Assembly: GCA_016931325.1 (NCBI GenBank)
Contig: JAFGFC010000136.1
Coordinates: forward strand, 1-37,322
Length of the DNA stretch: 37,322 bases
Source of the DNA: Spirochaetota bacterium
GTDB taxonomy: Bacteria; Spirochaetota; JAHITG01; JAFGFC01
Reading direction: 5' to 3'
Both the position numbers and the translations under genes were made by a program. The notes below the pieces were generated by a model. That model was not told the DNA's origin. It saw only the letters and a program-made list of their open reading frames with translations, and searched no databases. Each line of letters begins with the position of its first letter. The stretch's first letter is position 1. Shown here piece by piece: positions 1-37,322 of the stretch.

Positions 1-90
1 ATGGCGGATCCGACCCGACCTGCTTCCTGCAGTTATGGTCGGCTCCCTGCCATCCATGGCGGATCCGACCCGACCTGCTTCCTGCAGGTC
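1..90 (+). repeat. Structured repeat element copy E, preceded by a truncated tandem copy (55-bp offset)
   Basis: ATGGCGGATCCGACCCGACCTGCTTCCTGCAG at 1-32 repeated exactly at 56-87. Full copy: GGTCGGCTCC (37-46), inner hairpin GCCAT-cc-ATGGC (49-60), GGATCCGACC (61-70), terminal hairpin GACCTGC-TTCCT-GCAGGTC (72-90). Confidence 0.85.
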
Positions 91-101
91 GCATAAATCA
101 T

Positions 102-129
102 TTGACATTATAAATAATTCCAGTATCTT
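102..129 (+). promoter_or_regulatory. Putative sigma70-type promoter for the FecR-domain gene
   Basis: TTGACA (102-107), 16-nt spacer, TATCTT (124-129). Confidence 0.45.
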
Positions 130-170
130 TTTTCATGGATCGAAAGTATGATAATTAAGGAGTGATCGTT

Positions 171-1043
171 ATGAAAAAACTTTTCTTATTTTTAATCATT
201 TTAGGCTTGATGATCTCCGGCTGTACAAAGGAAGCGGATAAGGTCAAATTCGGAATTGTAACACTTTTCATAGGTGATGTGGAAATTAAAAAAGGGATGA
301 AAACAGTAAAACCGGCTATCAAGATGATCCTGAGAGCCGGAGACAGGGTTATAACAGGTAAAGGATCCCGGCTGGATATGCAGATGGGCAATTTTGGTGT
401 TCTTCGTATTAATCAGAGTTCCGAAGTGGAAATGGACCGGCTGTTAGACGCATCCAATGATAGTATTCAAACCTTTTTAAAAGAGGGACAGATCATCTGT
501 AAATTGAAAAAGCTGCAGAAAAATCAGGATTTTAGTGTGGAAACACCCACGGCTGTTGTCGGGGTCAGGGGCACGACCTTTGCCGTTGATTCGTCCCAGG
601 AGGAAAAAAAGAGTTCTGTGGCTGTAGCAGAAGGCCAGGTTGAGATGGCCAATAAGGAAGAACCGGAAAAAACGGTAACGGTAAAAGAGAATCAATCGGC
701 TGAAGTGTCAGAAGATAAAAAATTGCCGGAGGTTTTAAACAAGATCGATATCAAACAATTAAAAGCCCTGAATGATATCAAGAAAGTGCAGATATTGAAA
801 GATATTGAGAAATTCAAACCTGATCAGCTCCAGAAATTATTTAAATCAGGCGGCAAAGGAGTAGATGTAAAAGGCCTGCAAAAGGTCGTTTCTTCAGAAA
901 AAGTGGACAAGACCGTTCAAAAGGCTGAAGAAGCCAAGAAAAAAGCAGAAGAAGAGAAGAAAAAAGCTGAAAAGAAGATAGAGGACGCGAAGAAAAAAGC
1001 AGAGGACATAAAGAAAAAGATCCCCGGCGGACTTTTTAAATAA
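171..1043 (+). CDS. FecR-domain lipoprotein with lysine/glutamate-rich C-terminal tail
   Basis: ATG at 171 after AAGGAG; lipobox-like LMISGC; FecR-like core (AGDRVITGKGSRLDMQMG..., VETPTAVVGVRGTTFAV); KKKAEEEKKKAEKK tail. ORF track starts at GTG 162. Confidence 0.8.
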   Translation: MKKLFLFLIILGLMISGCTKEADKVKFGIVTLFIGDVEIKKGMKTVKPAIKMILRAGDRVITGKGSRLDMQMGNFGVLRINQSSEVEMDRLLDASNDSIQTFLKEGQIICKLKKLQKNQDFSVETPTAVVGVRGTTFAVDSSQEEKKSSVAVAEGQVEMANKEEPEKTVTVKENQSAEVSEDKKLPEVLNKIDIKQLKALNDIKKVQILKDIEKFKPDQLQKLFKSGGKGVDVKGLQKVVSSEKVDKTVQKAEEAKKKAEEEKKKAEKKIEDAKKKAEDIKKKIPGGLFK

Positions 1044-1054
1044 ACAAAAATAAC

Positions 1055-1136
1055 GCGGAGGTGGCGGAACTGGCAGACGCGCCAGACTTAGGATCTGGTG
1101 GGGTAACCTGTGGGGGTTCAACTCCCCCTCTCCGCA
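1055..1136 (+). tRNA. tRNA-Leu (anticodon TAG)
   Basis: Acceptor GCGGAGG/TCTCCGC, anticodon arm CCAGA-cttagga-TCTGG, long variable arm, T-arm GGGGG-TTCAACT-CCCCC, discriminator A. Confidence 0.92.
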
Positions 1137-1274
1137 AGTATTTGGTTTATTGGAAGAAGGAAAAATAAGAACACGGGCCTGGCAAAGCATGGCTCGGTGA
1201 ATGGTTAATATAAACGGTGACCTTCATTTACAAGATCTGTCATAAAGGCTAAAAAAACCAAAAGGATCATAAGA

Positions 1275-2228
1275 ATGGGAAATGATATATATGATGTGAT
1301 CATTATTGGCGGAGGCCCGGCGGGTTTGACTGCCGGGATTTATACCTCAAGGGCACGTTTAAGGACCTTGATCCTTGAAAGCTTTGCTCCTTCAACACAG
1401 GCGGTTCTTACCGACTTGATCGAAAATTATCCCGGTTTTCCAGAGGGTATTACAGGATTTGATCTGATCGAGAAATTCAAGAAACAGGCCCAGAGATTTT
1501 CCGCTGAACGGGCAACAGAAAATGTCCAATCCATCGGGAAAGATACGCTGGACAGAAAAATGATATGGCGGGTAAAGACCGATAAACGCGCGCTTCAGTC
1601 TTACTCCCTTATTATTGCCTCAGGGGCCAGAGCCAGGCCGCTGGGAATTCCCGGTGAGAATCAATTCAAAGGAAAAGGTGTTTCGTATTGCGCTGTTTGT
1701 GATGCGCCTTTTTTTAAAGGGAAGGATGTTCTGGTAGTGGGCGGTGGAAATACCGCCGTACAGGAGGCCCTGTATCTGACTAAATTCGCTTCCCGGGTCT
1801 ATCTCCTTCATCGCCGCAACAGGTTGAGAGCCGACAAAATACTGCAGGAACGGGCACAGGATAATCCCAAGATTGAAGTTTTATGGGAATCGATTCCGCT
1901 GGAAATAACAGGGGATGATAAAATAGGATCGGTCAAGATCAAGAATGTGAAAAACAACGTAACATCAGATATAAAGTGTGACGGGGTCTTTATTTTTATC
2001 GGCTGGGATCCTAATACGGATTTTTTAAATGGTCAGGTAAAAAGGGACAGGGAAGGATATATTATTACTGATGATCATATGGCCACCTCCCGGAAAGGAA
2101 TTTTCGCCTGCGGGGATTGCCGGAAGAAAAGTCTCAGGCAGGTGATCACAGCCTGTGGTGACGGGGCTACAGCCGCTTACTCGGCTCAATTATATGTGGA
2201 GAACTTGATGGGCAGGGCTTATGATTAA
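1275..2228 (+). CDS. trxB: Thioredoxin reductase / FAD-dependent pyridine nucleotide-disulfide oxidoreductase
   Basis: GGGPAGLTAGIYTSRA, CAVCD redox CxxC, VVGGGNTAVQEALYL, GIFACGDCR. Confidence 0.92.
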   Translation: MGNDIYDVIIIGGGPAGLTAGIYTSRARLRTLILESFAPSTQAVLTDLIENYPGFPEGITGFDLIEKFKKQAQRFSAERATENVQSIGKDTLDRKMIWRVKTDKRALQSYSLIIASGARARPLGIPGENQFKGKGVSYCAVCDAPFFKGKDVLVVGGGNTAVQEALYLTKFASRVYLLHRRNRLRADKILQERAQDNPKIEVLWESIPLEITGDDKIGSVKIKNVKNNVTSDIKCDGVFIFIGWDPNTDFLNGQVKRDREGYIITDDHMATSRKGIFACGDCRKKSLRQVITACGDGATAAYSAQLYVENLMGRAYD

Positions 2229-2282
2229 AAAGACAATCGTGAAATTTGAGGAATTTTCAGGGATGTCGAACATGATAGGGAT

Positions 2283-2402
2283 ATGGATAAAAAAGAGAAT
2301 AAAGATCTGGACGAGATCAAAAGACTTTTTGAATCGATCCACAAGAACATCGATGCTATCAAAATGGTCATATTCCAGTTTAAGAATAATTCTCGCCGCT
2401 AG
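2283..2402 (+). CDS. Candidate small ORF (39 aa) overlapping the annotated 5' end of sppA in another frame
   Basis: MDKKENKDLDEIKRLFESIHKNIDAIKMVIFQFKNNSRR*; protein-like composition, unlike the overlapping sppA-frame peptide. Confidence 0.4.
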   Translation: MDKKENKDLDEIKRLFESIHKNIDAIKMVIFQFKNNSRR

Positions 2403-4677
2403 TCTTTTCTTGATCCTTTTGACGGTTTTTCTCCATGGCGCCTTTTTAAATCCCCACATTCCTTATGTGACGTCCTCTCTGTCCGATAAGGCTAACAGTA
2501 TCTTTTTCAATCCTGCCGGCCTGGGGGTCAGGAAGAATTTTAACATGTTCTTCGATCTCAGCTACAGGCGATCAGAAAATGTGTCTCTCAGCCTTTCCCT
2601 GGATACCCTTCTGGGGGGATTCGCTTTTGAGAATTTTCAGAATGATAATACAAAATACAAGATCTATCATTATGTTCTTCCCGGTGAGATCAACTTTTTC
2701 GGATTCCCGTTCTATGTCGGTATTAAGAACAGCTGGTATACCATTGACTCTTCTCATCCTTATACGATCGGCCTGGGGTTTTTAAACCGGTTCTGGAATC
2801 ATTTTTCACTGGGCATGGTCTTTGATAATCTGAACAGGATGAAAATTTATCCTGATAGGAGAAAAGCGGTTGAGACAAAATTGTCTCTGGGCTTTGGTTT
2901 TTTTTCGGAAAGGTTGTTTTTCAGTATTGAAAATGTCAACCAGGATAATTTTGGATGGGATCATAATGTCTATCAGCTTTTTTTTGAACCCATAAAAGGG
3001 ATCAGGGTCCATTCGGCCTATTTTAATCTGCTGGATCATTATACCTATCAGCTGGGTATGAATTTTTTATTTTCCCAGACGGAGATCGATTATTCTTTCA
3101 ATAATGTTCAAAAAAAAGATGACAATTCACAGAGCCTTCAGATCGGTTATGATTCCTCGACCTATCCTTCTGAATTAAGGATACCGGGGTTGATCAATAT
3201 TAAGGTGGAAGGCCTTTTAACCGATGCGGAACAGATGAGCCTTCTGGGTGACAGCAGCAAAGGAGCTCAGAATATTGCCGGTCAGATCGAAAAGGGGATC
3301 AACGATGACAAGATCAGAGGCATGCTTCTGGAGATCGGATCCATCGAGACCACGTCTTTCGGGGGGATCGGAGGGCTGGTCTATGAATTGAGGGACAGGA
3401 TCCTGGAGTTCAGAAAAAAGGGTAAATATGTTGTGGCCTATTTGGAGAGTGGGGGTTCAACAGAAGAATATTTTCTTGCTTCAGCCGCGGACAAGATCGT
3501 TTGCGGGCCTTTTGCTTCTCTTGAAGAAATGGGTATCGCTCTCAAGGTGCGGAAATTCAAAGGGCTTTTACAGAAGATCGGTATAAAATTCGATATTATC
3601 AGCGCCGGAGAGGATAAAAACGCGTTAAATCCTTTTGGTGATGACCTTGAAGATTGGCAAAGAGAAAGCCTCATGGAAAATGTCAGGGATTCTTATCACC
3701 TGTTTGTGAAAATGGTCTCTGATTCAAGGTTCCTTAAGAAGGAGAGTGTAGAAAACCTGATGCAGGACCAGGCTGTTCTTTCAGCCAAAGTATTAAAACA
3801 GGAAAATTGGATCGACAAGATCGGCTACAGGGAAGATGCCATGGAGACTCTGGGTTATATGGTCAACAGGGATGTGGCCGGCGCCGGATTTATCAATATA
3901 GAAAATGTCAGTTACCGACCCAGTACCTGGAAAAATTCTCCCAAGATCGCGGTCATCCCTATCTACGGCCCCATTGTGTCGGGAAAGAGTATCTATAACA
4001 GGATATATGGCAATATGGCTACGGGTTCAGATACGGTTGTGGAGCAGATCCAGTCCATTGAAGGGGATGTGACCATTAAGGCGGTTATCATGCGCATTGA
4101 TACTCCGGGTGGTTCTGTCTCAGCCTGTGATAGGATATATAAACGATTACTAAAGTTACAGGATAGCGGAAAATACATTGTGGCTTCTTTTGGGAGTATG
4201 GCCACGTCAGGGGGCTATTATATTGCCTGCGGAGCCAACAAGATCATCAGCACCCCTTTTACCGTGACAGGAAGTATTGGTGTTTTTACCATGAAACCTG
4301 TTCTTGGCGATCTGTATGAAAAGTTCGATATCACTTCTGAAACCTTGAAGAAAGGCCCTTATTCTGATTCTTTTACTTCAGATAGAGAATTCTCTGACAA
4401 AGAACGCGAATCTATTAAAGAGAACATGGAAGAGGCCTATGATCATTTTATCTCTGTTGTGGCAAAGAACCGCGATGTTTCACCGGTCAGTATAAGAAAA
4501 ATAGCCAGAGGAAGGATCTATACAGGAAATCGGGCTTTTCAATTAAAGCTGGTCGATCATCTGGGTGGCATGAAAAAAGCTGTTGACATTATTCAGAAGA
4601 AGACAAAAATTGATGATCCCATTATGATCTATTACTGGCAGGATTTCTGGTCCTTCTCCCCGGTATTATTGTTCTAA
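2353..4677 (+). CDS. sppA: SppA-type (S49) signal peptide peptidase with N-terminal outer-membrane beta-barrel-like domain
   Basis: ORF track 2221-4677. Signal-like SLRIILAASLFLILLTVFLHG; PorV/UPF0164-like DKANSIFFNPAGLG and alternating strands; S49 motifs EDKNALNPF (Lys) and GSMATSGGYYIACGANKI (Ser). Start at 2353 is my suggestion. Confidence 0.85.
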   Translation: MLSKWSYSSLRIILAASLFLILLTVFLHGAFLNPHIPYVTSSLSDKANSIFFNPAGLGVRKNFNMFFDLSYRRSENVSLSLSLDTLLGGFAFENFQNDNTKYKIYHYVLPGEINFFGFPFYVGIKNSWYTIDSSHPYTIGLGFLNRFWNHFSLGMVFDNLNRMKIYPDRRKAVETKLSLGFGFFSERLFFSIENVNQDNFGWDHNVYQLFFEPIKGIRVHSAYFNLLDHYTYQLGMNFLFSQTEIDYSFNNVQKKDDNSQSLQIGYDSSTYPSELRIPGLINIKVEGLLTDAEQMSLLGDSSKGAQNIAGQIEKGINDDKIRGMLLEIGSIETTSFGGIGGLVYELRDRILEFRKKGKYVVAYLESGGSTEEYFLASAADKIVCGPFASLEEMGIALKVRKFKGLLQKIGIKFDIISAGEDKNALNPFGDDLEDWQRESLMENVRDSYHLFVKMVSDSRFLKKESVENLMQDQAVLSAKVLKQENWIDKIGYREDAMETLGYMVNRDVAGAGFINIENVSYRPSTWKNSPKIAVIPIYGPIVSGKSIYNRIYGNMATGSDTVVEQIQSIEGDVTIKAVIMRIDTPGGSVSACDRIYKRLLKLQDSGKYIVASFGSMATSGGYYIACGANKIISTPFTVTGSIGVFTMKPVLGDLYEKFDITSETLKKGPYSDSFTSDREFSDKERESIKENMEEAYDHFISVVAKNRDVSPVSIRKIARGRIYTGNRAFQLKLVDHLGGMKKAVDIIQKKTKIDDPIMIYYWQDFWSFSPVLLF

Positions 4678-4680
4678 GAG

Positions 4681-4735
4681 AAAAGGGGACGGTTCTTGCA
4701 TGCTGGAATGCTTTGCTAAAGAACCGTCCCCTTTT
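4681..4735. repeat. 17-bp perfect inverted repeat (REP/MITE-like, also terminator-like)
   Basis: AAAAGGGGACGGTTCTT (4681-4697) / AAGAACCGTCCCCTTTT (4719-4735), followed by T-rich tract. Confidence 0.8.
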
Positions 4736-4778
4736 TTGTTCAAGAATGTAAAAATAAAATCCGATAATCGTATAAAAT

Positions 4779-5969
4779 ATGAAACTGATAAGAAGAATTA
4801 TTGACGGTATCAGTGATTTCCTTTTCGGGCTGAAACGAACCGGTTTTGGTAATATTATCATCACGTTTTTGCTGATCATTACCATTTCCACAGTAGGGAT
4901 CTATCTTATCGAAAGAAAGGAAAATGCGAGTTTTAAAACGACCTTTGATACCTTATGGTATACGATCGTTACCCTTTCCACGGTCGGGTACGGGGATAAA
5001 ACCCCCATAACGGTAGGCGGGCGGCTTTTGGGCATTCTGATCATTCTTTTTGGTGTGGCGATCATGGGCGCTGTTACCGGTAAGATCGCTTCGTATCTGG
5101 TTGAACGCCAGTTAAAAGAAGGACGGGGAATGATCGATCTGTCCAAATTAAAGAATCACCTGGTTATATGCGGATGGAGGCCACAGCTCCCGCAGATCAT
5201 TAATGATATTCTGACAGTTAAGCCTGAACTGAAACCCTCTCATATCGTTCTGGTTAATTTTGCTGACCCCCAAAAGATCGAAGATATACGGGCTGACAGG
5301 AAACTGTCTAAAATAAAATTTATTTACGGGGATTACAGCGATGAAGCGGTTTTAAGGCGAGCCAATATTATGGAGGCTAAAACAGTTATTATCATAGCGG
5401 ATCATACCAATCCGGCAGCGACCATCCATGAGATCGATTCCAGGACAGTCATGACGGTCATGATAATTGAAAATCTGACCAAGGAGATCTATACCTCCGC
5501 CGAACTGTTAGACCCGAAATTTGAACGGTATCTCAAACTGTCGTATTGTGATGAAATAATTTTAAGCCGGGCCTACAGCCGTATTTTTCTGGCTAATGCT
5601 GCTGCGGCTTCAGGAATATCACAGGTGGTGCACAAGATCGTGGAAGTGGACTCTCCGACTCCGTTAAAAGTTATGCCTTTCCCGGATCGATTTATCGGAA
5701 AGACATTCAAGGACGTTGCTGATTTTTTTAAAACAAAAGGGAATTATATATTGATCGGACTTTTGGAAAATACCGGGAATATATATATGAGAAAAAGAGA
5801 AGCGTTAAAAGAAGCTCAGAAGACACCGGATATATCCAAACTGGTGGATAACCTGCAGAATGTGAAAAGGATAAAGCCCAATGATCCCATTATCAATCCC
5901 GGTAATGAGTATCATGTTAAAAAACATTCCAAGGCTATTGTGATCTTTGCCAAGACAATAAAGGAATAA
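4779..5969 (+). CDS. Potassium channel protein: two-TM pore plus TrkA-N/RCK domain
   Basis: Selectivity filter TLSTVGYGDKTP; HLVICGWRPQLPQIINDIL Rossmann motif; TrkA-C-like C-terminus. Confidence 0.9.
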   Translation: MKLIRRIIDGISDFLFGLKRTGFGNIIITFLLIITISTVGIYLIERKENASFKTTFDTLWYTIVTLSTVGYGDKTPITVGGRLLGILIILFGVAIMGAVTGKIASYLVERQLKEGRGMIDLSKLKNHLVICGWRPQLPQIINDILTVKPELKPSHIVLVNFADPQKIEDIRADRKLSKIKFIYGDYSDEAVLRRANIMEAKTVIIIADHTNPAATIHEIDSRTVMTVMIIENLTKEIYTSAELLDPKFERYLKLSYCDEIILSRAYSRIFLANAAAASGISQVVHKIVEVDSPTPLKVMPFPDRFIGKTFKDVADFFKTKGNYILIGLLENTGNIYMRKREALKEAQKTPDISKLVDNLQNVKRIKPNDPIINPGNEYHVKKHSKAIVIFAKTIKE

Positions 5970-5970
5970 A

Positions 5971-6498
5971 ATGGATAAAGTTTCAAAAAAAACAGAAGAG
6001 ATCATCAAGACATTGAAAGAGGTGCCTATCTTCAAGCCGTTTTCCAACAAGCCTGAAGAGCTGTTAAGAATTGCCTCGATTATGGATCTAAAAAAGGCCA
6101 AGAAAGGCGAATATATCATAAAAGAAGGCAATGAGGGTGATACCCTTTTTATTCTGAAATCAGGAGCGGTCAATATATTAAAGAAGACATTGGAGAAAGA
6201 AGAATATACGGTCGTCCGGCTGGAAAGCACAAAGGACTCGGTTCTGTTTTTTGGAGAGCTGGCTCTTCTGGACAATGACCGCCGTTCCGCTTCTGTTATG
6301 GCTGACACGGACCTTGAACTTTTAACCATAAACCGGTCAAATTTTATCAAGCTGGGCAACAAATATCCTCACCTGGGACTTTTGATCACCCGGGAGATCT
6401 CCAAGATCCTGGCCTCCCGATTACGGAAGACCAATACCGATATTATCACCTTATTTGAAGCCCTTGTTCAGGAAGTGAGCGGGGGATCGGCCCTGTGA
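5971..6498 (+). CDS. Cyclic nucleotide-binding domain protein
   Basis: CNBD-like KKGEYIIKEGNEGDTLFILKSGAVNILKK ... FFGELALLDNDRRSASVMADTDLELLTINRSNF; no obvious HTH. Confidence 0.88.
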   Translation: MDKVSKKTEEIIKTLKEVPIFKPFSNKPEELLRIASIMDLKKAKKGEYIIKEGNEGDTLFILKSGAVNILKKTLEKEEYTVVRLESTKDSVLFFGELALLDNDRRSASVMADTDLELLTINRSNFIKLGNKYPHLGLLITREISKILASRLRKTNTDIITLFEALVQEVSGGSAL

Positions 6499-6510
6499 TC
6501 ATTTCTATTT

Positions 6511-7524
6511 ATGAAAACCAGTGACTTTGATTATGAACTTCCTGTCGAATTGATCGCTCAATATCCCACCAGAGCGCGTGATAAATGCAAACTTCTTGTT
6601 TATCATAAAACCAGCCACGAAATAGAACACAGAATATTTTCAGATATCGTTTCTTATTTTAAAAAAGGAGATGTTCTGGTCTTTAATGATACCAGAGTGT
6701 TCCCGGCCCGGCTCTACGGATTAAAAAAAGAGACCCACGCGAAACTTCAAATTCTTCTTTTAAAAAAAGTCTCCCCTTTTGTATGGGAAGCGTTGATCAA
6801 GCCGGCCAAACGGGTAAAGGAAAACACCCTGATCCATATTAAAAAGGAGCAGGCGCGTGTCGTTCAGAAAAAGGACGAAGGACTGTGTCTTCTGGAATTT
6901 CAAAGGGAATTTAAATATAAGGATCTTGAACGGATAGGGGACATCCCCCTCCCTCCTTATATTAAACGCGATATCAGCCAGGCCATTGATAAAAAATTTT
7001 ATCAGACCATTTATGCCAGACAGTTCGGAGCGGTAGCCGCTCCCACAGCGGGACTTCATTTTACCAGGGGACTCATGTCCCAAATAAAAAGAAAAGGGAT
7101 CAAAATAGCGTATGTGACATTGCATGTGTCCTGGGGCAGCTTTGCCCCGATCCGCGCGGAGGACGTCCGGGATCACAAATTGCACAGGGAATATATTATC
7201 CTTTCAGAGGATAACGCCAGGATCATTAATGAGAGAACCGGCCGGCTCATCAGTATCGGTACTACCGTGACCAGGGCCCTGGAGAGTATGGCCAGACAGG
7301 GACGGGTATCACCTTTTGAGGGCGAAGTGGACCTTTATATCTATCCTTCCTATCAGTTTCAGATAATCGATGGGTTATTAACAAATTTTCATCTTCCAAA
7401 AACATCCCTCTTACTTATGGTGAGCGCTTTTTTAGGGGGATCGGTCTGGAGAAAATTGTATCAGGAAGCGATGGAAAGAAAATACAGATTCTATTCTTAC
7501 GGTGATGCGATGTTGATCATTTAG
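6511..7524 (+). CDS. queA: tRNA preQ1(34) S-adenosylmethionine ribosyltransferase-isomerase
   Basis: DYELPVELIAQYP, VFNDTRVFPARLYG, GAVAAPTAGLHFT, TNFHLPKTSLLLMVSAFLG. Confidence 0.95.
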   Translation: MKTSDFDYELPVELIAQYPTRARDKCKLLVYHKTSHEIEHRIFSDIVSYFKKGDVLVFNDTRVFPARLYGLKKETHAKLQILLLKKVSPFVWEALIKPAKRVKENTLIHIKKEQARVVQKKDEGLCLLEFQREFKYKDLERIGDIPLPPYIKRDISQAIDKKFYQTIYARQFGAVAAPTAGLHFTRGLMSQIKRKGIKIAYVTLHVSWGSFAPIRAEDVRDHKLHREYIILSEDNARIINERTGRLISIGTTVTRALESMARQGRVSPFEGEVDLYIYPSYQFQIIDGLLTNFHLPKTSLLLMVSAFLGGSVWRKLYQEAMERKYRFYSYGDAMLII

Positions 7525-7527
7525 AAT

Positions 7528-7620
7528 ATGGGGACGGTGCGTGACATTGTGACAAATAAAAAATTATTATACCAATCTCAAAATTGAATATTTTGTCAAA
7601 ATGTCACGCCCTATCCCCAT
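7528..7620. repeat. MITE/REP-like long imperfect inverted repeat between convergent genes
   Basis: ATGGGGACGGTGCGTGACATTGTGACAAA (7528-7556) vs TTTGTCAAAATGTCACGCCCTATCCCCAT (7592-7620); 29-nt arms, few mismatches. Confidence 0.8.
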
Positions 7621-21292: not shown

Positions 21293-21408
21293 GATCGAAT
21301 CCTATCCCTCCTTGTCCCGTGGAATTTCGAAGAAATCCCCGGGATTAAATCCCCGCAATTCATATAATTGCAGGGGAGGGATTCGATCCGACTCACTTCC
21401 TGTGAGTC
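21293..21408 (+). repeat. Structured repeat element copy B (long form), between mlaF and mlaD
   Basis: Outer stem GATCGAATCC (21293-21302)/GGATTCGATC (21379-21388); inner hairpins incl. CCCCGCAATT..AATTGCAGGGG; terminal hairpin GACTCAC-TTCCT-GTGAGTC (21390-21408). Confidence 0.85.
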
Positions 21409-21411
21409 GTA

Positions 21412-24839: not shown

Positions 24840-24864
24840 CCGAGCCTAAAGGCTCGGCTACAAG
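24840..24864 (-). repeat. GAGCC-palindrome repeat copy
   Basis: Minus strand CTTGTAG-CCGAGCC-TTTA-GGCTCGG. Confidence 0.75.
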
Positions 24865-28156: not shown

Positions 28157-28187
28157 TAAAATCTTCCTTTTCAAAACCGGAATATTA

Positions 28188-28215: not shown

Positions 28216-28232
28216 TAAGAAAATATTTTGTT

Positions 28233-29954
28233 TTAACCGGGCGCAAATCCGTTGGTAATAGGCATCCGCCGGTCTTTGCCAAGCGCTACTTTCGAGATCT
28301 TTATACCGGGCGGAGATTGACGTCTTTTATATTCACTCCTGTCAACCATCCCGATCACCTTTTTGACCATATCCCGCTGGAAACCTTTTTTCATGATCTC
28401 GGGTAAGGTAAGATATTTTTCAATATAAAGGAAAAGGATCTTATCCAGCAAAGGGTAGGGCGGGAGCGTATCCGAATCCTTCTGATCCTTTTTTAATTCT
28501 GCCGTGGGAGCTTTATGAATGATGCGGGCGGGCACCAGTTCTGTTTTGCTCTGCTTATTCCTGTAATGGACAAGTTGATAGACCAGTGTTTTAGGCACAT
28601 CTTTGATCACGGCAAAACCACCGGCCAGGTCCCCGTAAAGCGTTGTATACCCTGTGCTCATCTCGCTCTTGTTCCCTGTGGCCAGGACAAGAGCCTTGAA
28701 TTTATTGGAAAAGGCCATGAGGATATTCCCGCGGATGCGCGCCTGGATGTTCTCTTCTGTTATGTCAGGAGGAAGATCCCGGAATATCTGCTCCAGGGAT
28801 CGCAGATAAGAGCTACAGATATCGTCGATGGGAAGGGTATGCAATTTTATCCCGAGATTCCGGGCTAATGTTTCAGCGTCCTGGCGACTTTCCTGTGAGG
28901 TGAAACGGGAGGGCATAAAAAGAGCCGTGACATTCTTTTTTCCCAGGGCATCCACAGCAATAAGCGTGGTTAAGGCGGAATCAATACCTCCGCTCAGGCC
29001 GATTACCACTTTTTTAAAATTATTTTTATCAACATAATCTCTGGTTCCCAGCGTCAGGGCTGTATAGATCTCCTGTGGAAGCTCATAAAACGGTGTCTTT
29101 TGCGCAGAGTATTTTTTGAAATCCTTTTTTTCTTTAGGTTGAAAGCCTTTTATCTTTACCAGGTGGACTTTGCTTTTGCGGTTGAGCTTTTTTCCTTTGG
29201 CCTCAAGGTCAAAGAAGAAAAGATCTTCTTCAAACTGTTTCCCGGTTCGGACCAGCTGTCCTTTGTTGTCCACAATAAGGCTGTGGCCGTCATAAACGAC
29301 CTCATCCTGGCCGCCCACCATATTTAAATAACAGATTACTGTACCGGTCTTCAGGGCTATTTCTTTCATCCGTTTCAGCCGGTCCTTTGCTTTTTCCTTA
29401 TAGTAAGGAGACGCGTTAATATTGATATTTATAATGCTGCCGTTTTTTGATTGCTCGAAAAGGGGCGTGTCCTCAGCCCAGATATCTTCACAGATACTTA
29501 TACCAAAAAATATTCCCCCCAGATCATAGACAGGAATAATATGGCCGGGCGCAAAGTACCGTTTTTCGTCAAAGACGCCGTAATTGGGCAGATGGATCTT
29601 GTTGTAGATATCAATGATCCTTTTTTTATGGATCAAAGCCGCTGAATTATACAGCTGATCTTTTTCCTTACCCCTCATGCCTCGGGATGTTTCGCTACGG
29701 ACAAAACCCACCAGGCAGATAATATTATCGCATAATGAGACGATCTTTTTCACATAGCTCATGTTCTCACGGATAAACCCTTCTTTATGTAAAAGGTCTT
29801 CAGGCGGATACCCTGTGATGGCCAGTTCCGGGAAAACAACAAGATCGCATGATCGTTCTTTTGCTTTCAGGATACAATCTTTTATCTTTAAAAAATTATG
29901 CTGAAAATTTCCCACAAAGGCGTTGATCTGACCGAACGCGATACGCAGTTTCAT
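28233..29954 (-). CDS. nadE: Glutamine-dependent NAD+ synthetase
   Basis: N-terminal nitrilase domain (VVFPELAITGYPPEDLL, GISICEDIWAED); C-terminal VIGLSGGIDSALTTLIAVDALG, TGNKSEMSTGYTTLYGDLAGGFAVIKDVPKTLVY. Confidence 0.95.
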   Translation of the reverse strand: MKLRIAFGQINAFVGNFQHNFLKIKDCILKAKERSCDLVVFPELAITGYPPEDLLHKEGFIRENMSYVKKIVSLCDNIICLVGFVRSETSRGMRGKEKDQLYNSAALIHKKRIIDIYNKIHLPNYGVFDEKRYFAPGHIIPVYDLGGIFFGISICEDIWAEDTPLFEQSKNGSIINININASPYYKEKAKDRLKRMKEIALKTGTVICYLNMVGGQDEVVYDGHSLIVDNKGQLVRTGKQFEEDLFFFDLEAKGKKLNRKSKVHLVKIKGFQPKEKKDFKKYSAQKTPFYELPQEIYTALTLGTRDYVDKNNFKKVVIGLSGGIDSALTTLIAVDALGKKNVTALFMPSRFTSQESRQDAETLARNLGIKLHTLPIDDICSSYLRSLEQIFRDLPPDITEENIQARIRGNILMAFSNKFKALVLATGNKSEMSTGYTTLYGDLAGGFAVIKDVPKTLVYQLVHYRNKQSKTELVPARIIHKAPTAELKKDQKDSDTLPPYPLLDKILFLYIEKYLTLPEIMKKGFQRDMVKKVIGMVDRSEYKRRQSPPGIKISKVALGKDRRMPITNGFAPG

Positions 29955-30087
29955 AGCATAATATTATTTGAAATAAAGACCGAAGTCAACAATAAGTTCA
30001 AGCTCGAAATTCGAAGTTATTCAGACTCCTTGTAGGGATAGGTATTTTTCAAGATGGTTTGTTTTCATACCGAAGTTAAAAGTAGAG

Positions 30088-30972
30088 ATGAAAGAATTAC
30101 TGGAACAGTTCATTAATTACCTGAAAATCGAGAAAGGCCTGTCCAGGAACACGGTGCTGAATTACCAATCTGATATCGAACAGTTTTTTATTTTTTTAAA
30201 AAGTAAAAACATAGACAATATAGATGATGTATCAGGCCTTCTTTTAAGCGGGTATCTTTCATATTTAAGATCGCATAATATCTCCAACAGGTCCATGGCC
30301 CGAAAAGTGACGGCTTTAAGGATGTTCTTCAAGTACCTGGTCATTGACCGTATCATCCAGATAAACCCTTCCCTTTTACTCGAGGTCCCGAAGATCAATG
30401 CCTCCCTTCCGGAATACCTGAGCCTTTCTGAAGTGGAGTCTCTGTTAAAAACATTTGATACACAAAAACCTTTGCAGGTCCGCGACAAAACGATCATGGA
30501 ACTTTTATACTCCGCTGGCCTGAGGGTTTCCGAGATCACGAACCTTCACGTCTACGACATTAATTCCCGAGAGCGTTTCATCAAAGTGAAAGGCAAGGGA
30601 GACAAGGAACGGTTGATCCCGCTGGGTCAAAAGGCCATTGACATTCTGGATCATTACATCATGCGCATCAGACCGCAGTACAACAGGATGGATTCGCCGT
30701 TTCTGTTCCTGAACGCCAAAGGAGGAAAGCTCTCCCGTATCAGCGTATGGAAGATCATAAAGTTCTATGCCAGAAAATGCGGGATCACCAAAGACATTTC
30801 TCCCCATACCCTGAGGCACAGTTTTGCCACGCATTTAATAAACAACGGGGCTGACCTGAGGTCTGTCCAGGAGCTGTTAGGCCACTCCAGCATTTCCACC
30901 ACACAGATCTACACTCACCTGAACTATGAAAAGTTGAAGAAATTTCATCATTCCTATCATCCGAGAGGATGA
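30088..30972 (+). CDS. xerD: Tyrosine recombinase XerC/XerD family
   Basis: YSAGLRVSEITNL, ISPHTLRHSFATHLINNGADLRSVQELLGHSSISTTQIYTHL. Confidence 0.93.
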   Translation: MKELLEQFINYLKIEKGLSRNTVLNYQSDIEQFFIFLKSKNIDNIDDVSGLLLSGYLSYLRSHNISNRSMARKVTALRMFFKYLVIDRIIQINPSLLLEVPKINASLPEYLSLSEVESLLKTFDTQKPLQVRDKTIMELLYSAGLRVSEITNLHVYDINSRERFIKVKGKGDKERLIPLGQKAIDILDHYIMRIRPQYNRMDSPFLFLNAKGGKLSRISVWKIIKFYARKCGITKDISPHTLRHSFATHLINNGADLRSVQELLGHSSISTTQIYTHLNYEKLKKFHHSYHPRG

Positions 30973-31001
30973 CGGTATAATATATCAACATTCCTATGAT
31001 T

Positions 31002-31048
31002 GCGAGCCTGAAGGACCTTCGGCCCTGAAGGCTCGCCTACAGGTTAAC
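31002..31048 (-). repeat. GAGCC-palindrome repeat copy (expanded loop)
   Basis: Minus strand TTAACCTGTAG-GCGAGCCT...AGGCTCGC (outer arms 31002-31009/31029-31036) with nested GAAGG-a-CCTTC. Confidence 0.75.
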
Positions 31049-31071
31049 GTACAATCTCGCTTATTTATCTA

Positions 31072-31099
31072 TTGACTTTAACACAAAAAATATTATACT
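31072..31099 (+). promoter_or_regulatory. Putative sigma70-type promoter for the DegT-family gene
   Basis: TTGACT, 16-nt spacer, TATACT; AAGGAG RBS downstream. Confidence 0.65.
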
Positions 31100-31127
31100 A
31101 TCAAAATATCTTTGCAAGGAGAAAATA

Positions 31128-32234
31128 ATGTCATTCAAGATCCAATTCACTGACCTGAAACGTCAGTATAAAGAACTGGAAGAAGAGATAGTCGCTTCAC
31201 TCAAAAAGATAATGGAATCAGCCCGGTTCATTAACGGGCCTGAAGTGACCGAGCTGGAAGAAAAAATCGCAAAATACTGCGGCTGCAAAATTGCCGTGGG
31301 TGTGGGTTCAGGCACAGACGCGCTTTTATTATCGCTCATGGCCCTGGATATAAAAAAAGGAGATGAAGTCATCACCACGCCTTTCACCTTTATTGCAACA
31401 GCTGAAGTGATCAGCCTTCTGGGTGCCAGGCCGGTCTTTGTCGATATAGACCAGAGTACCTATAATATTGATGCTGCCGGAATAAAAGCCAGGGTCACGG
31501 ACAAGACCAAAGCCATCATCCCTGTCCATTTATACGGACAGACAGCGGATATGGACGAGATCAACAAGATCGCAAAAGAACATGATCTTTTTGTTATTGA
31601 AGATGCCTGCCAGGCGATCGGCGCCGAATACAAAGGCAAAAAAGCCGGAAGCCTGGGCCATGCAGGGGCTTTCAGTTTCTTCCCGGCCAAGAACCTCGGG
31701 GCTTACGGGGACGGTGGAATGGTGACCACAGATGATGAAGATCTGGCCGCAAAGATAAAGACTTTGCGGGAACACGGCTCAAAAGAACGTTACCGGCATT
31801 CTCTGATCGGTATCAACGCCAGGCTTGACACCATGCAGGCGGCCGTTCTTCTGATAAAATTGAAAAAACTGGATCAATGGCTCCAAAACCGTATCAAACT
31901 GGCCTCACGTTACAGTGAAAAATTGAAGGACCTTGTCCATACCCCTGTTGTTAGAAAAGAGAACAAAGCTGTCTTTAATCAGTATACGATCCTGACTGAC
32001 AGACGGGATGATCTCATTAAATTTTTAAATGATAACGGGATCCCCACAGCCATTCACTATCCCATGCCTCTGCACCTTCAGAAAGCATTCGAGTTTTTAG
32101 GATATAAACAGGGTGATTTCCCTGTGAGCGAAGAGATTTCAAAAAAGGTAATGTCCCTTCCCATGTATCCGGAAATGACCGAACAGGAACAGGACCTGGT
32201 CATAAATGAAATTCACAGGTTTTTCAAGAAATAA
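31128..32234 (+). CDS. DegT/DnrJ/EryC1/StrS family aminotransferase
   Basis: GVGSGTDALLLSLMAL, TPFTFIATAEVI, EDACQAIGAEYKGKKAGSLGHAGAFSFFPAKNLGAYGDGGMV. Confidence 0.94.
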   Translation: MSFKIQFTDLKRQYKELEEEIVASLKKIMESARFINGPEVTELEEKIAKYCGCKIAVGVGSGTDALLLSLMALDIKKGDEVITTPFTFIATAEVISLLGARPVFVDIDQSTYNIDAAGIKARVTDKTKAIIPVHLYGQTADMDEINKIAKEHDLFVIEDACQAIGAEYKGKKAGSLGHAGAFSFFPAKNLGAYGDGGMVTTDDEDLAAKIKTLREHGSKERYRHSLIGINARLDTMQAAVLLIKLKKLDQWLQNRIKLASRYSEKLKDLVHTPVVRKENKAVFNQYTILTDRRDDLIKFLNDNGIPTAIHYPMPLHLQKAFEFLGYKQGDFPVSEEISKKVMSLPMYPEMTEQEQDLVINEIHRFFKK

Positions 32235-32253
32235 CGTACATATTGAACGTTTT

Positions 32254-32366
32254 GGTCAAATCCTTGCCCTCCTGCCCTGAGGAATTTAAGGAATTCCCAG
32301 GGTAAAGTCCCCGCAATTCGGGGAATTGCAGGGGAGCGGATTTGACCCAACGCACTTCCTGTGCGT
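32254..32366 (+). repeat. Structured repeat element copy A (long form), immediately upstream of the GT2 start
   Basis: Outer stem GGTCAAATCC (32254-32263)/GGATTTGACC (32338-32347); inner hairpins incl. CCCCGCAATTC..GGAATTGCAGGGG; terminal hairpin ACGCAC-TTCCT-GTGCGT (32350-32366). Confidence 0.87.
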
Positions 32367-32372
32367 AGAACG

Positions 32373-33143
32373 ATGCAAAAAATCAGCACTGTCATTATCA
32401 CTTTTAATGAGCAGGATAATATCAAAGAGTGCGTGAAAAGTGTCCTGTGGACCGATGAGATCATTATCATTGATTCTTTCAGCACGGACAAGACCATAAA
32501 AATATGCCGCAGCTTTGGCAGACGGGTCAAGCTCTACAAAAGGAAATGGAAGGGTTATGCTGACCAGAAGAACTTTGGCATTAAAAAGGCAACGAACCCG
32601 TGGATCCTGAGCCTGGATGCTGATGAAAGGATCACCCGGGAATTGAAAAAAGAGATCAGTATCTGCCTTTCGCAAGATAAGACCTTGAAAAGAGGATATC
32701 AGATCCCGCGGAAGAATTATTATTTCGGCAGGTGGATCAGACGGGGAGGCAATTATCCTGATCTCCAGTTGCGGCTCTTTCAAAAGCGGTATGGGAAATT
32801 CAGCCTTGTGCCTCTGCATGAAGGCGTATCCTTAACCCAGACCGGTGTTCTGAAACATCCCATGATCCATTACAGCTATAAGAATATAAATGACTATTTC
32901 AAACGCTTCATCATTTACACGGATATGGAAAAAGAGATCTTTATTTCCAAAAAGGTCAAGGTGAATATTTTTTCTTCTTTCTATTATATTGTCCTGCTGC
33001 CTTTTAAAAAATTCATCAGCCGTTTCATTTTCAAGCTCGGCTTTCTGGACGGCCTGGACGGTTTTATTGTGCTGCAGCTGAATAACATCACCAGGATGAT
33101 CTCCTATTATAAATATTATTTATGGTATAAACGAAATGTCTGA
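32373..33143 (+). CDS. Glycosyltransferase family 2 (WaaE/KdtX-like)
   Basis: MQKISTVIITFNEQDNIKECVKSVLWTDEIIIIDSFSTDKT; ILSLDADERIT. ORF track start 32361 (GTG) lies inside the repeat hairpin. Confidence 0.9.
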   Translation: MQKISTVIITFNEQDNIKECVKSVLWTDEIIIIDSFSTDKTIKICRSFGRRVKLYKRKWKGYADQKNFGIKKATNPWILSLDADERITRELKKEISICLSQDKTLKRGYQIPRKNYYFGRWIRRGGNYPDLQLRLFQKRYGKFSLVPLHEGVSLTQTGVLKHPMIHYSYKNINDYFKRFIIYTDMEKEIFISKKVKVNIFSSFYYIVLLPFKKFISRFIFKLGFLDGLDGFIVLQLNNITRMISYYKYYLWYKRNV

Positions 33144-34458
33144 GTACGATCTCATCATTATCGGGGCCGGTTCCGGCGGTTACAGGGCGGCTGTCACTGC
33201 CGGAAGCATGGGAAAGAAAGTCCTTGTGATCGAACGGCACAAAGCCGGCGGTGTCTGTCTCCATAACGGCTGCGTCCCTTCCAAGACCTTTTATCAGACA
33301 GCCAAAATAATCAAAAACCTCCATGGCCAGAAAAAAAATTCGCTTTTAGAAGCCGAACTCAACTGGAACATGGAGAAACTCATCCGGTACAGGGATGGTG
33401 TCATCTCAAAACTTGAAAAGGGCATCGAATTCTTATTCAAAAAGAACAATATTGAGATGATCAAAGGCCAGGCCCATCTGATAAAAGAAAAGAATAAACC
33501 CCTTGTGATGGTGAATGATAAAAAATTCCAGGCTCCTTTTATCATTGTGGCCACGGGTTCCAGGAATGCCGCTCCCTCCACCTGGCAGGACAGAGTCCTG
33601 TCCCCGGATGAATTTATCCGGCTCGGAGGATATCCGGGTTCAGTGGCTATCATCGGCGGCGGTGTGATCGGCTGCGAATTCGCCGGTATATTCAGTCAAT
33701 TCAATGTGGATATCACGGTGATCGAAAAAGAGAACAGGCTTCTGCCGTTTCTGGACAAGGATCTCGGCGAGGTGGTCGAGAAGAGCCTTAAAGAGATTGG
33801 CGTAAAAGTTTATACCGGGCAGACCGTATCAAAGATCAGTGACGGTCTTATCCTGTCGGATAAAACAAAGATCAAAGCGGAAAAGATCATCGCCTGCATG
33901 GGGCGCAGGCCCAATACGGAATGGACAGAGGATCTTATTCAAACGGACGAAAAGGGTTTTATCAAGGTGGATAACAATTTCAAAACATCCTGTGACGGGG
34001 TATACGCTGTCGGGGATGTGATCAACAAAGATTCCATGTACGCGCATCTGGCCTCTTTTCAGGGCGAGGCGCTTGTCCTGCATCTTTTCCAATCGAAAAA
34101 AATTCATCCTGCGCATTCGCCTTACGGCATCTTCACTTTCCCCCAGATTGCCGGTATCGGCATGAGCGAGGATCAGGCGGTCAAAGCCGGACTGGACCAT
34201 GAAGTGATACGTTCCCCTCTTTTTGCCACGTCCATAGGAAAGATACAGGATGACAGGACCGGATTCATGAAAGTCATAAAACAAAAAAGCAGAGATAAAC
34301 TGTTCGGGATCCATGTAGCCTCTCCATCAGCCTGTGAGATGATCCATACCGCTTCCGTGTTGTTCAACAATGATCTCGCGCAAGCTGCGAGTCTGAAAAA
34401 CACGGTTTTTATCCATCCCACCGAATCAGAGATATTCCACGACATCCAAGTTTTTTGA
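33136..34458 (+). CDS. Dihydrolipoyl dehydrogenase-like flavoprotein disulfide reductase
   Basis: IGAGSGGYRAAVTAGSMGKKV, GGVCLHNGCVPSKTF, IIGGGVIGCEFAGIFSQF, C-terminal HPTESE. Confidence 0.9.
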   Translation: MSEYDLIIIGAGSGGYRAAVTAGSMGKKVLVIERHKAGGVCLHNGCVPSKTFYQTAKIIKNLHGQKKNSLLEAELNWNMEKLIRYRDGVISKLEKGIEFLFKKNNIEMIKGQAHLIKEKNKPLVMVNDKKFQAPFIIVATGSRNAAPSTWQDRVLSPDEFIRLGGYPGSVAIIGGGVIGCEFAGIFSQFNVDITVIEKENRLLPFLDKDLGEVVEKSLKEIGVKVYTGQTVSKISDGLILSDKTKIKAEKIIACMGRRPNTEWTEDLIQTDEKGFIKVDNNFKTSCDGVYAVGDVINKDSMYAHLASFQGEALVLHLFQSKKIHPAHSPYGIFTFPQIAGIGMSEDQAVKAGLDHEVIRSPLFATSIGKIQDDRTGFMKVIKQKSRDKLFGIHVASPSACEMIHTASVLFNNDLAQAASLKNTVFIHPTESEIFHDIQVF

Positions 34459-34564
34459 AAAGTTGTTGAAATAATTTTTAAAAGGAGTATCTTTTTTTCA
34501 GATCAGTCTGGAAAAATATTCAATAAATTTTGTATATAAGATAAAAGGTCATGGGAGGAAAATC

Positions 34565-35653
34565 ATGAAAAGTTCCAAATTGAATATCCAGGATAAATTA
34601 ACCAAGGCGTCTTCCCGGGAAGAGGCTTTATCCTTAGCCCTTTCGCAGATCGAGAGTCAGTTCGGGAAGGGCGCGATCATGCGGCTCGGTGATCAAAAGG
34701 CCAAGGTGAGTGTTCCGGTCATACCCACAGGGGCTCTGACCCTGGACATAGCCCTGGGAGTCGGTGGTATCCCCCGTGGCCGCGTTGTAGAGATCTACGG
34801 GCCGGAATCATCCGGCAAGACCACGCTGGCTCTTTCCATTATTGCCGAGATTCAGAAAATAGGAGGCATCGCCGCTTTTATTGATGCCGAGCATGCTCTG
34901 GACCCGGCTTATGCCAAGATGCTGGGAGTTGATATAGACAATCTTCTGGTCTCGCAGCCTGATACAGGAGAACAGGCGCTCGAGATCGCCGAATCGCTTG
35001 TAAGAAGCGGCGCGGTGGATCTTATTGTCGTGGATTCTGTAGCGGCTCTGACGCCACGCGCCGAGATCGAAGGGAATATGGGGGATTCGCATATGGGCTT
35101 GCAGGCGCGGTTGATGTCCCAGGCCTTGAGAAAACTGACCGGCACGCTCAGTAAATCCAATACATCCATTGTCTTTATCAACCAGATAAGAATGAAGATC
35201 GGTATTGTTTACGGCAGCCCGGAAACGACTACAGGCGGGATCGCGCTCAAATTCTATGCTTCTTTAAGACTGGAGATCAGAAAGGCGGAGAATATTAAAA
35301 AAGGCGAAGACCTCTATGGGATACGGGTGAGGGTCAAAGTGGTGAAAAATAAAGTGGCTCCCCCCTTTAAAAAAGCTGAATTTGATATCCTGTTCAATCA
35401 GGGTCTTTCCAAAGAAGGCTGTATCCTGGACGCCGGCGTGGAGAGTGAGGTCATCAGCAAGACAGGCACCTGGTTCTCTTATGGCGACCAGCGTATCGGA
35501 CAGGGCCGGGAGAACGTAGCTAAATTTTTAAAAGAGCATCCTGATATCATGGACAAGATCGAAAAACAGGTCCGGGAAAAAGTGGGTCTGGTATTGAAGC
35601 GGGAAACGCCGGCTCCGGCTGCGCAGGAGAAAAAATCTTCTGATCCCGAATAA
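34565..35653 (+). CDS. recA: Recombinase A
   Basis: [80 protein letters not shown]. Confidence 0.98.
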
Positions 35654-35679
35654 GCAAAAACACTATATCTTTTAAAAAT

Positions 35680-36900
35680 TTGATGAAGAAGAAAAAGATC
35701 AAGATAAAAGAGATTGCCGGAGGGGTAACGGCTCCACTCGGTTTTTTAACCTCTGGTGTGCACTGCGGATTAAGACGCTCCAAATATGACATTGCCCTGA
35801 TCTACTCCAAAGAAAAATGTCTGGCTGTGGGAGGTTTTACAAAAAATCTTCTGCAGGCGGCTCCGCTTATCATTTCCAGAAAGCATATCAAAGGCCCCAT
35901 CAAGGCTGTTATTGTTAACAGCGGTAATGCCAATGCGGCAACCGGCAAGAAAGGTCTGGCCGATGCCAGAACTATGTGCCGGCTGACCGCTCAAAACTTG
36001 AATATAAAGACAGAGAATGTGCTGGTCTTTTCCACCGGCGTTATCGGTAAATTCATGGACATGGCCAAGATCTCAAAAGGCATCAAGATGCTCATACCGG
36101 TTTTAAATACATCTTCTGAAGAAGCGGCTGAAGCTATCCTGACGACCGACAGGGTAAAGAAACAGGTGGTAACCGAGTTCAAGATCAAGAATAAAAAAGT
36201 ACGTATCGGCGGTATGGCCAAGGGCTCGGGCATGATCGCGCCCAATATGGCCACCATGCTGGCCTTTATCTGTTCGGATGTGAACATTAAAAAGAGTCTG
36301 TTGAACAAACTTTTTCAACATGCGCTGGAACGATCGTTCAATCTGATATCCATTGACGGCGAGATGAGCACCAATGACGCCTGTGTCTTTATGACGAATA
36401 AAAAGGCGGGCAACGACGAGATCAATGAAAAGACAGCGGATTCGATAAAGATCTTTTACGCCAACCTGCTCTATGTGATGCAGAAACTGGCGCGCATGAT
36501 CGTGTCAGACGGCGAGGGTGTGACCAAGCTGATCGAGATCAAGGTGATCAACTGCAAGACAAAAAAGAAAGCCAGAGCGATCGCCAGCCGTATCGCCAAT
36601 TCGCCCCTGGTCAAGACCGCCATTTACGGCGGGGACGCCAACTGGGGCCGCGTGGCCTCAAGTATCGGCGCCAGCGGCGAAAAGGTGAATATGGAAAAAT
36701 GCATTATAAAGTTCGGTAATTACCTGATGTACAGGAATAACGCGCCTGTGAAATTCAGCGAAGAGAAACTGGCCGCTTATCTGAAGAATAAAAAGATACA
36801 GATCCTGGTCGACCTGCAGGAAGGAAAAGAAGCCATCTCGTTTTTCACCGGCGACCTGACGGAAGAATATATACGTATCAACGCGCATTATAGGAGTTAG
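35680..36900 (+). CDS. argJ: Bifunctional glutamate N-acetyltransferase / amino-acid acetyltransferase
   Basis: GVTAPLGFLTSGVHCGLR; VNSGNANAATGKKG; GMAKGSGMIAPNMATMLAF; YGGDANWGRVASSIGASGE. Confidence 0.96.
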   Translation: MMKKKKIKIKEIAGGVTAPLGFLTSGVHCGLRRSKYDIALIYSKEKCLAVGGFTKNLLQAAPLIISRKHIKGPIKAVIVNSGNANAATGKKGLADARTMCRLTAQNLNIKTENVLVFSTGVIGKFMDMAKISKGIKMLIPVLNTSSEEAAEAILTTDRVKKQVVTEFKIKNKKVRIGGMAKGSGMIAPNMATMLAFICSDVNIKKSLLNKLFQHALERSFNLISIDGEMSTNDACVFMTNKKAGNDEINEKTADSIKIFYANLLYVMQKLARMIVSDGEGVTKLIEIKVINCKTKKKARAIASRIANSPLVKTAIYGGDANWGRVASSIGASGEKVNMEKCIIKFGNYLMYRNNAPVKFSEEKLAAYLKNKKIQILVDLQEGKEAISFFTGDLTEEYIRINAHYRS

Positions 36901-36952
36901 ACTCACAGGAAGTGAGTCTGGTCGGATTCCCATGGATGGAAAGAATCCGACC
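36900..36952 (-). repeat. Structured repeat element copy C (short form), overlapping the argJ stop codon
   Basis: GACTCAC-AGGAA-GTGAGTC (36900-36918); perfect outer stem GGTCGGATTC (36920-36929)/GAATCCGACC (36943-36952) around CCAT-gg-ATGG. Confidence 0.87.
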
Positions 36953-36967
36953 AAGGCTATATATATC

Positions 36968-37322
36968 GGATAAAAAAACGAAAGATTACATACAAAAAGC
37001 CAATGTTTAACCTTGTAGAGGAGCCTTCAGGCTCCGATAGATTAAAAAAACAATGAAAGACTATATCCAAAAAGCCAATGTTTAACCTTGTAGAGGAGCC
37101 TTCGATAAACAGGATGTTTATCGGCCCGAATCCCTAAGGAGGGATAGGATTCGACCAAGGCTTGCCATGTTGGAATATAAAAAAACGAAAGATTACATTC
37201 AAAAAGTCAATGTTTAACCTTGTAGAGGAGCCTTCAGGCTCCGCCATCTGGGATAAAAAAGAAAATGAAAGATTATTTACAAAAAAATCAATGTTTAACC
37301 GTGTAGGCGAGTCTTCAGGCTC
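36968..37322 (+). repeat. Four-unit array: A-rich leader + (M/T)KDYIQKANV-coding segment + TTTAACCTTGTAG-GAGCC palindrome
   Basis: Units ~36968-37036, 37037-37103, 37172-37243, 37251-37322 share GAAAGAT/CTA..CAAAAAGCCAATGTTTAACCTTGTAGAGGAGCCTTCAGGCTCC. Confidence 0.9.
37104..37156 (-). repeat. Structured repeat element copy D (short form), nested in the second array unit
   Basis: GATAAAC-AGGAT-GTTTATC (37104-37122); outer stem GGCCCGAATCC/GGATTCGACC (one bulge); inner CCCT..AGGG. Confidence 0.8.

Follow-up and report, generated by a model that had tools for sequence, protein, structure and literature searches.

The stretch of DNA analysed here, a 37,322-nt contig (JAFGFC010000136.1, referred to below as the window) of an uncultured spirochaete, carries copies of a two-hairpin element that is dispersed through the source genome. 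We interpret this element as a non-autonomous mobile palindrome, comparable to repetitive extragenic palindromic (REP) sequences and miniature inverted-repeat transposable elements (MITEs), that is recognised and mobilised as a single strand in folded form; the probability of this reading is estimated at about 0.6. Its copies conserve structure rather than sequence, keep one of the two strands foldable and differ at their two ends in the neighbouring sequence; for some of the occupied sites empty counterparts exist.

The source genome is a metagenome-assembled genome of the Spirochaetota (2.88 Mb in 204 contigs, 95% complete), and the window is its entire contig C164. A covariance model built from 10 copies gave at least 122 matches in this genome at E<=1, a model from 60 copies at least 127 at E<=0.1; these counts are lower bounds (150 candidates scored). 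TCCT-loop hairpins with a stem of 6 bp or more were found 56 times in 571 kb around the copies, whereas seven control loop words gave 0-4. With the genome-wide model matches and this excess, chance is excluded as the origin of the copies. The window starts inside an element (1-94) and ends in a GTAG-tagged REP (37250-37322), and the contigs C63, C128, C154 and C198 each have a copy in their first 100 bases. Thus, the assembly is probably broken by the repeats and the real copy number is likely higher.

The short form of the element has a length of about 53-60 nt. On the plus strand, hairpin 1 has at least 10 bp and the loop CATCC, followed by hairpin 2 with usually 8 bp and the loop HTCCT (consensus CGAYNNRC-HTCCT-GYNNRTCG). 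In an alignment of 60 distinct short copies to a 20-pair structure, 93.6% of the cells were paired, compared with 21-42% after sliding the structure. Changes on both sides of a pair occurred in 17 of the 20 stem pairs. They amounted to 237 cells, against 65.2±7.8 in 500 shuffles and 13-39 with slid structures. At one central position of hairpin 2, all four pair types occur (AT 17, GC 16, CG 14, TA 10). While the stems are free to vary, the loops are held: NTCCT was found in hairpin 2 of 85 of the 88 parsed copies (TTCCT 36, ATCCT 32, CTCCT 15, GTCCT 2), and the other three contain TCAT. The first-pass annotation, made from five copies, had proposed that structure rather than sequence is maintained and had suggested a covariance-model search of the genome and its relatives; the covariation among the genome-wide copies supports the proposal.

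Mismatches within the stems indicate which strand matters. Palindromy of the DNA alone would lead to equally frequent G·T and A·C mismatches on the plus strand. In the parsed copies, 41 A·C but only 15 G·T mismatches were counted on this strand; with well-paired copies only, the ratio was 24 to 4 (per-copy sign test, p=0.002). On refolding, the real mismatches were 1.3 kcal/mol cheaper on the reverse strand (43 copies vs 14, p=3e-6). Both p values are optimistic, as the copies are not fully independent. Because of the A·C excess and the smaller refolding penalty, the strand kept foldable is the reverse of the one first described. The test does not separate single-stranded DNA from RNA, since the folding parameters of both agree. 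Read on the reverse strand, the element begins with a hairpin with the loop C-AGGA(A/T/G)-G, followed after 1-2 nt by a longer hairpin with the loop CANGGATG. The meaningful loop is consequently AGGAA or AGGAT and not the TTCCT described at first, which changes the candidate functions.

Mobility is supported by pairs of filled and empty sites. A repeat at position 4540 of contig C124 holds a copy in the loop of a palindrome, and its paralogue on contig C163 is empty (GGTCT^GAAGACC); with the element excised, the two are 83.5% identical over 79 nt across the junction. In the window, the copy next to the contig end (copy 5) splits a GTAG-tagged REP exactly in its loop (empty form GCCT^GAAGGC on the minus strand), and intact REPs at 37015-37040 and 37222-37247 flank this site. 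Furthermore, copies sit in arrays of a TCGAAC heptamer, which also occur elsewhere without the element, and in decayed copies of tRNA-Asn on contig C24, next to an intact gene for this tRNA. The flank profile of 45 single copies shows T before and AA(C) after the element, which reads as TT at the 5' flank when the reverse strand is considered. A structured RNA or a palindrome mobilised in the manner of RAYT-REP or IS200/605 systems had been envisaged originally. Mobility is supported by the site pairs, but a partner of these types is not, as described below.

Although 83% of the sequence is coding, 119 of 125 matches (95%) are intergenic. Paired copies are arranged head to head or as tandems; at the tandem joins inspected, the 3' arm of hairpin 2 is cut. 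An orientation bias with respect to transcription was not detected: both flanking genes are co-directional with the plus strand for 26 copies and with the reverse strand for 20. The surroundings of the two ends are different. A sigma-70-like promoter pointing away from the element lies within 100 nt of the hairpin 2 end in 28 of 86 cases, compared with 6 of 78 on the other side. For -35 boxes 6-12 nt past the element the numbers are 17 of 86 and 0 of 78 (p=9e-6), and in 16 of these 17 cases the close promoter is followed on the same strand by a gene, mostly at a distance of 39-142 nt. Likewise, a gene boundary is found within 80 nt of the hairpin 2 end in 48 of 79 cases and of the other end in 14 of 68 (p=9e-7). 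Behind the close promoters lie genes for a kinase-GGDEF protein, a glucoamylase-like protein, adenylate cyclases, adenosine deaminase, a MalK-like ABC protein, pyruvate:ferredoxin oxidoreductase, IMPDH and FecR. Given these mixed functions, a shared regulon was rejected, and the polarity is better explained by an insertion preference.

As a mobile palindrome, the element would be moved as a single strand, folded on the reverse of the strand first described. Insertion would take place without clear target duplication beside short stretches that are T-rich or contain TTC, in some cases within another palindrome's loop. The 5' hairpin of the folded strand would face either the end of a gene or the edge upstream of a promoter. 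Local multiplication after insertion would then give the tandem and head-to-head arrays, and a protein supplied in trans would read the GGA loops. Such a mode of spread accounts for a lineage-specific expansion, for positions between genes and nested in other repeats, for the empty sites and for the missing orientation towards transcription.

Several results weigh against it. Neither of the two Y1 transposase genes of the genome has a two-hairpin element beside it, a scan of genes located between adjacent copies gave no recombinase domain, and a reverse transcriptase (PF00078, RVT_1) was not found in the 95% complete genome. All empty sites are paralogues within the same genome. A bias relative to GC skew, which lagging-strand transposition of single-stranded DNA might give, was not seen (37 vs 29, p=0.39). 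Insertion into hairpin loops is no general rule, as the flank complementarity was 3.85 compared with 3.65±0.14 after permutation, which is not significant. Finally, the strong loop conservation together with a motif resembling CsrA sites could mean selection on an RNA. Regarding other modes of transfer, a Group II or other retro-mechanism was rejected as no RVT_1 was found, and a composite element carrying its transposase was rejected on the result of the recombinase scan.

Among 393 Spirochaetota genomes searched, matches were obtained in the source genome and in eight genomes of other genera. These eight hold 1-3 copies each, with changed stems and unchanged loops. The exact sub-type had no match outside the source genome in 84,980 species. 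With the stem-free pattern CATCCMTG-N7-CGACAY-N6-CHTCCTG, 24 stretches were found in the same 84,980 species. Those that fold belong to Spirochaetota, Gammaproteobacteria and Firmicutes; the gammaproteobacterial ones come from Halioglobus (in tandem), Pseudomaricurvus, Stenotrophobium and others, including one metagenome-assembled genome labelled Klebsiella, and abut a terminator-like hairpin. Stretches of Alphaproteobacteria, Bacteroidota, Planctomycetota and two viral contigs do not fold and were attributed to chance. Several genomes with related elements also hold variants with the same loops and different stems. This distribution suggests an old class of elements, of which the source genome holds an expanded sub-family.

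In Rfam, the window matched only a tRNA at gathering score. Weak matches to TD-1, SraG, MIR7533 and similar families were scattered and treated as chance. Twenty loci of the source genome gave no match to Bacillaceae-1 (RF01690) at E<=1. A copy of a sister genus could be aligned over the whole of this model with 28.3 bits (E=0.003; gathering score 35). The family had not been recognised at first, and the copies of the window match no Rfam family; the closest relative described so far is Bacillaceae-1, with a score under its threshold. No paper on repeats with CATCCATG or TCCT loops was found in the literature searched, which is a part of the whole; within that part, the architecture of conserved loops and varying stems across phyla appears to be undescribed.

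An alternative which we consider possible, though doubtful, is an RNA of the reverse strand. Each copy would then be a two-site CsrA module with the loops CAGGA(U/A)G and CANGGAUG at a distance of 26-31 nt, which sequesters CsrA or puts its sites into mRNAs. CsrB repeats carry CAGGA(U/A/C)G in hairpin loops, the consensus from systematic evolution of ligands by exponential enrichment (SELEX) is RUACARGGAUGU, and CsrA can bridge two sites separated by 10-63 nt (PMC7652899). In the reverse-strand loops of the element, GGA is present in 73 of 76 copies for hairpin 2 and in 71 of 76 for hairpin 1, CAGGANG in 65 of 76 and CANGGANG in 47 of 76, and the two GGA loops are spaced 25-32 nt, within the bridging range. 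The element therefore has the sequence features of CsrA sites, namely a loop GGA within CAGGA(U/A/C)G or CANGGANG and two sites 10-63 nt apart, although its stems are longer than the SELEX hairpins. The wobble pairs lie on the same strand, and the genome contains a csrA gene. csrA was detected in 20 of 21 element-bearing genomes and in 3 of 14 control genomes, but CsrA is common in the phyla concerned. The reverse complement of Bacillaceae-1 was earlier proposed to bind CsrA (PMC4333381). The reverse strands of three related copies matched RsmY, a small RNA sequestering CsrA, with 12.5, 20.6 and 23.9 bits, far under the cut-off of 57. Signs of transcription are less favourable. Besides the lack of orientation towards transcription (26 vs 20), reverse-strand promoters were found 6 times in 86 copies with about 10 expected (background 0.117 per 100 nt), and in only 6 of 38 reverse-sense leaders is a start no more than 80 nt away. 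On sequence grounds the match to CsrA sites is thus strong, and the transcript orientation gives no support.

A separate observation concerns the tRNA-Asn region of contig C24 (L074, 1190-2220). Three decayed tRNA-Asn copies with promoter-like boxes precede the intact tRNA-Asn(gtt), and GGA-loop hairpins of the element, all in one orientation, take the place of the D-arm or anticodon regions of these decayed copies. About nine GGA-loop hairpins within 0.8 kb stand on the tRNA strand, resembling a CsrB-type array.

Both ideas could be combined, which we regard as rather unlikely. The element would be a selfish palindrome whose single-strand signal is the CsrA loop motif, and it would spread dual CsrA sites in Spirochaetota, Gammaproteobacteria and Firmicutes. 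Transcribed copies would act as a CsrA sponge or rewire control, and Bacillaceae-1 would be a sub-family.

A DNA boundary element, with hairpins upstream of promoters or after gene ends that bind a protein or insulate the neighbouring gene, is improbable. The spacing of 6-12 nt to -35 boxes in one orientation and the gene ends near the hairpin 2 side would fit such a role, but most copies have no promoter at this spacing, the neighbouring genes share no function, copies are nearly absent from relatives, and a preference for insertion at T-rich boundaries could account for the pattern equally well. Least probable of all is an ordinary GTAG or CGTC REP mobilised by the resident RAYT: a RAYT is present and REP families are intergenic palindromes occurring in dimers, but no GTAG or CGTC tag was detected at the foot of the element in the flank profile of the 45 single copies, the RAYT is flanked by different palindromes such as GTAGCAGAGCCTTAAGGCTCTGCTA while similar GTAG palindromes stand separately in the window, and the unit consists of two different hairpins with fixed loops.

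The two Y1 transposase genes of the genome encode one RAYT and one Y1 protein with a DnaA-C-like tail. The RAYT-type protein (164 aa; contig C120, L010 1336-1830) has GTAG/CTAC palindromes (GTAGCAGAGCCTTAAGGCTCTGCTA) on both sides of its gene and forms a REPtron. In the window, GTAG-tagged REP palindromes (GTAGAGGAGCCTTCAGGCTCC) are a second repeat family, located at 24841-24861 and 36994-37322. At the contig end they form a tandem array with a unit of about 75-80 nt, one of which is interrupted by the two-hairpin element. The second Y1 transposase has 306 aa (contig C124, L011 728-1700) and TGGGGACGGACTTAAG ends. Similar inverted ends, ATGGGGACGG...CC(C)CAT, enclose a gap of 35 nt at 7528-7620 of the window, possibly a MITE of this transposase.

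All five copies of the element in the window had been located correctly, and pairing without mismatch around a TTCCT or ATCCT loop was verified for the terminal stems GACCTGC, GACTCAC (twice), ACGCAC and GATAAAC, though this stem is usually 8 bp long. A common layout had been described, to which some corrections apply. The stretch 1-90, taken as one copy, consists of a truncated tandem copy and a full copy, and copies 2 and 3 are long forms, in which hairpin 1 has additional hairpins within its loop. The outer stems of full copy 1 and of copy 5 pair imperfectly. The truncated copy (1-36, plus strand) retains the 3' portion of hairpin 1 together with a hairpin 2 whose 3' arm is cut (CGACCTGC TTCCT GCAG TTAT); such truncation at a tandem join recurs on contigs C11, C106, C142 and C154. 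Full copy 1 follows on the same strand with hairpin 1 at 37-70 (GGTCGGCTCC and GGATCCGACC, one mismatch, loop CATCCATG) and hairpin 2 at 71-91 (CGACCTGC TTCCT GCAGGTCG). The -35-like hexamer TTGACA at 102-107 (plus strand), 10 nt past this copy and towards the FecR-domain gene at 162, is an example of the promoter adjacency of the element. Copy 2 (plus strand) has hairpin 1 at 21293-21388 with the outer stem GATCGAATCC/GGATTCGATC and two more hairpins in its loop, and hairpin 2 at 21389-21409 (CGACTCAC TTCCT GTGAGTCG). In copy 3 (plus strand), hairpin 1 with two inner hairpins lies at 32254-32347 (outer stem GGTCAAATCC/GGATTTGACC) and hairpin 2 at 32348-32368 (CAACGCAC TTCCT GTGCGTAG, one A.A mismatch).

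Copies 4 and 5 are short forms of about 59 nt on the minus strand. Copy 4 starts directly after an argJ-like gene (35680-36900), with hairpin 2 at 36899-36919 (AGACTCAC TTCCT GTGAGTCT) and hairpin 1 at 36920-36952 (GGTCGGATTC/GAATCCGACC). Copy 5 has hairpin 2 at 37103-37123 (CGATAAAC ATCCT GTTTATCG) and an imperfect hairpin 1 at 37124-37156 (GGTCGAATCC/GGATTCGGGC). The GTAG-tagged REP that it splits extends from 37090 to 37167, with arms at 37090-37103 (GTAGAGGAGCCTTC) and 37157-37167 (AGGCTTGCCAT).

In the long forms, the loop of hairpin 1 encloses a varying number of extra hairpin modules (CCCGTGAAAT..ATTTCCGGGA and CCCCGCAATT..AATTGCAGGGG), in the window at 21315-21377 and 32275-32335 and elsewhere at L091 1820-2010. 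A perfect 20-bp hairpin, GCCCCGTTCGACGAAC-ATCCT-GTTCGTCGAACGGGGC, was found on contig C199 (L102 4940-4990). It corresponds to hairpin 2 lengthened by flanking GTTCGA and GGGGC sequence. The TCGAACN heptamer arrays (CGAACCTCGAACGTCGAAC) are dispersed over many loci of the source genome, with and without the element (for example L097 2611-2644, L058 5813-5844, L086 4427-4510). Their repeat unit is identical to the sequence in which the element ends on its 3' side (GTCGAAC); the arrays may therefore have grown from the element or be its target.

The palindromic repeat classes considered here carry a GTAG or CGTC tag, those with GTAG in association with RAYTs; the element has neither feature. It keeps two loops fixed with free stems, reveals the strand that matters and has a sharp insertion polarity. 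The loops agree with the motif bound by a global RNA regulator, and comparable units of two hairpins are present in three phyla. Thus, it links untagged bacterial palindromes lacking a transposase with the question of the function of Bacillaceae-1-like RNAs.

Compared with known systems, Bacillaceae-1 (RF01690) shares a stem around a UCCU-type loop, about 3 nt and a terminal hairpin with an AUCCU loop. In contrast to the element it is an RNA of Bacillaceae, and the part of its description available to us does not report it as a mobile repeat of about 100 copies (PMC2864571). With CsrB, CsrC, RsmY, RsmZ and TwoAYGGAY, the element has GGA hairpin loops, the CAGGA(U/A)G motif and paired sites at bridgeable distance in common. 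CsrB, CsrC, RsmY and RsmZ are single genes with many sites, whereas the element is present in many dispersed copies without a transcription signal on the sense strand. IS200/IS605 ends are similar in their subterminal hairpins, the lack of a clear target duplication and a short conserved 5' flank, but a linked TnpA (Y1), the organisation of a second end and an orientation bias with GC skew were not found here. REP/REPIN-RAYT systems (PMC3733652, PMC8266576) also consist of high-copy intergenic palindromes in head-to-head and tandem groups that are recognised as single strands. They differ from the element, which has two unlike hairpins per unit and neither a GTAG/CGTC tag nor a linked transposase; the RAYT of this genome is accompanied by its own GTAG repeats instead. 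In general, the element shows the features of REP- and MITE-like sequences: high copy number, intergenic location, clusters of dimers and natural empty sites.

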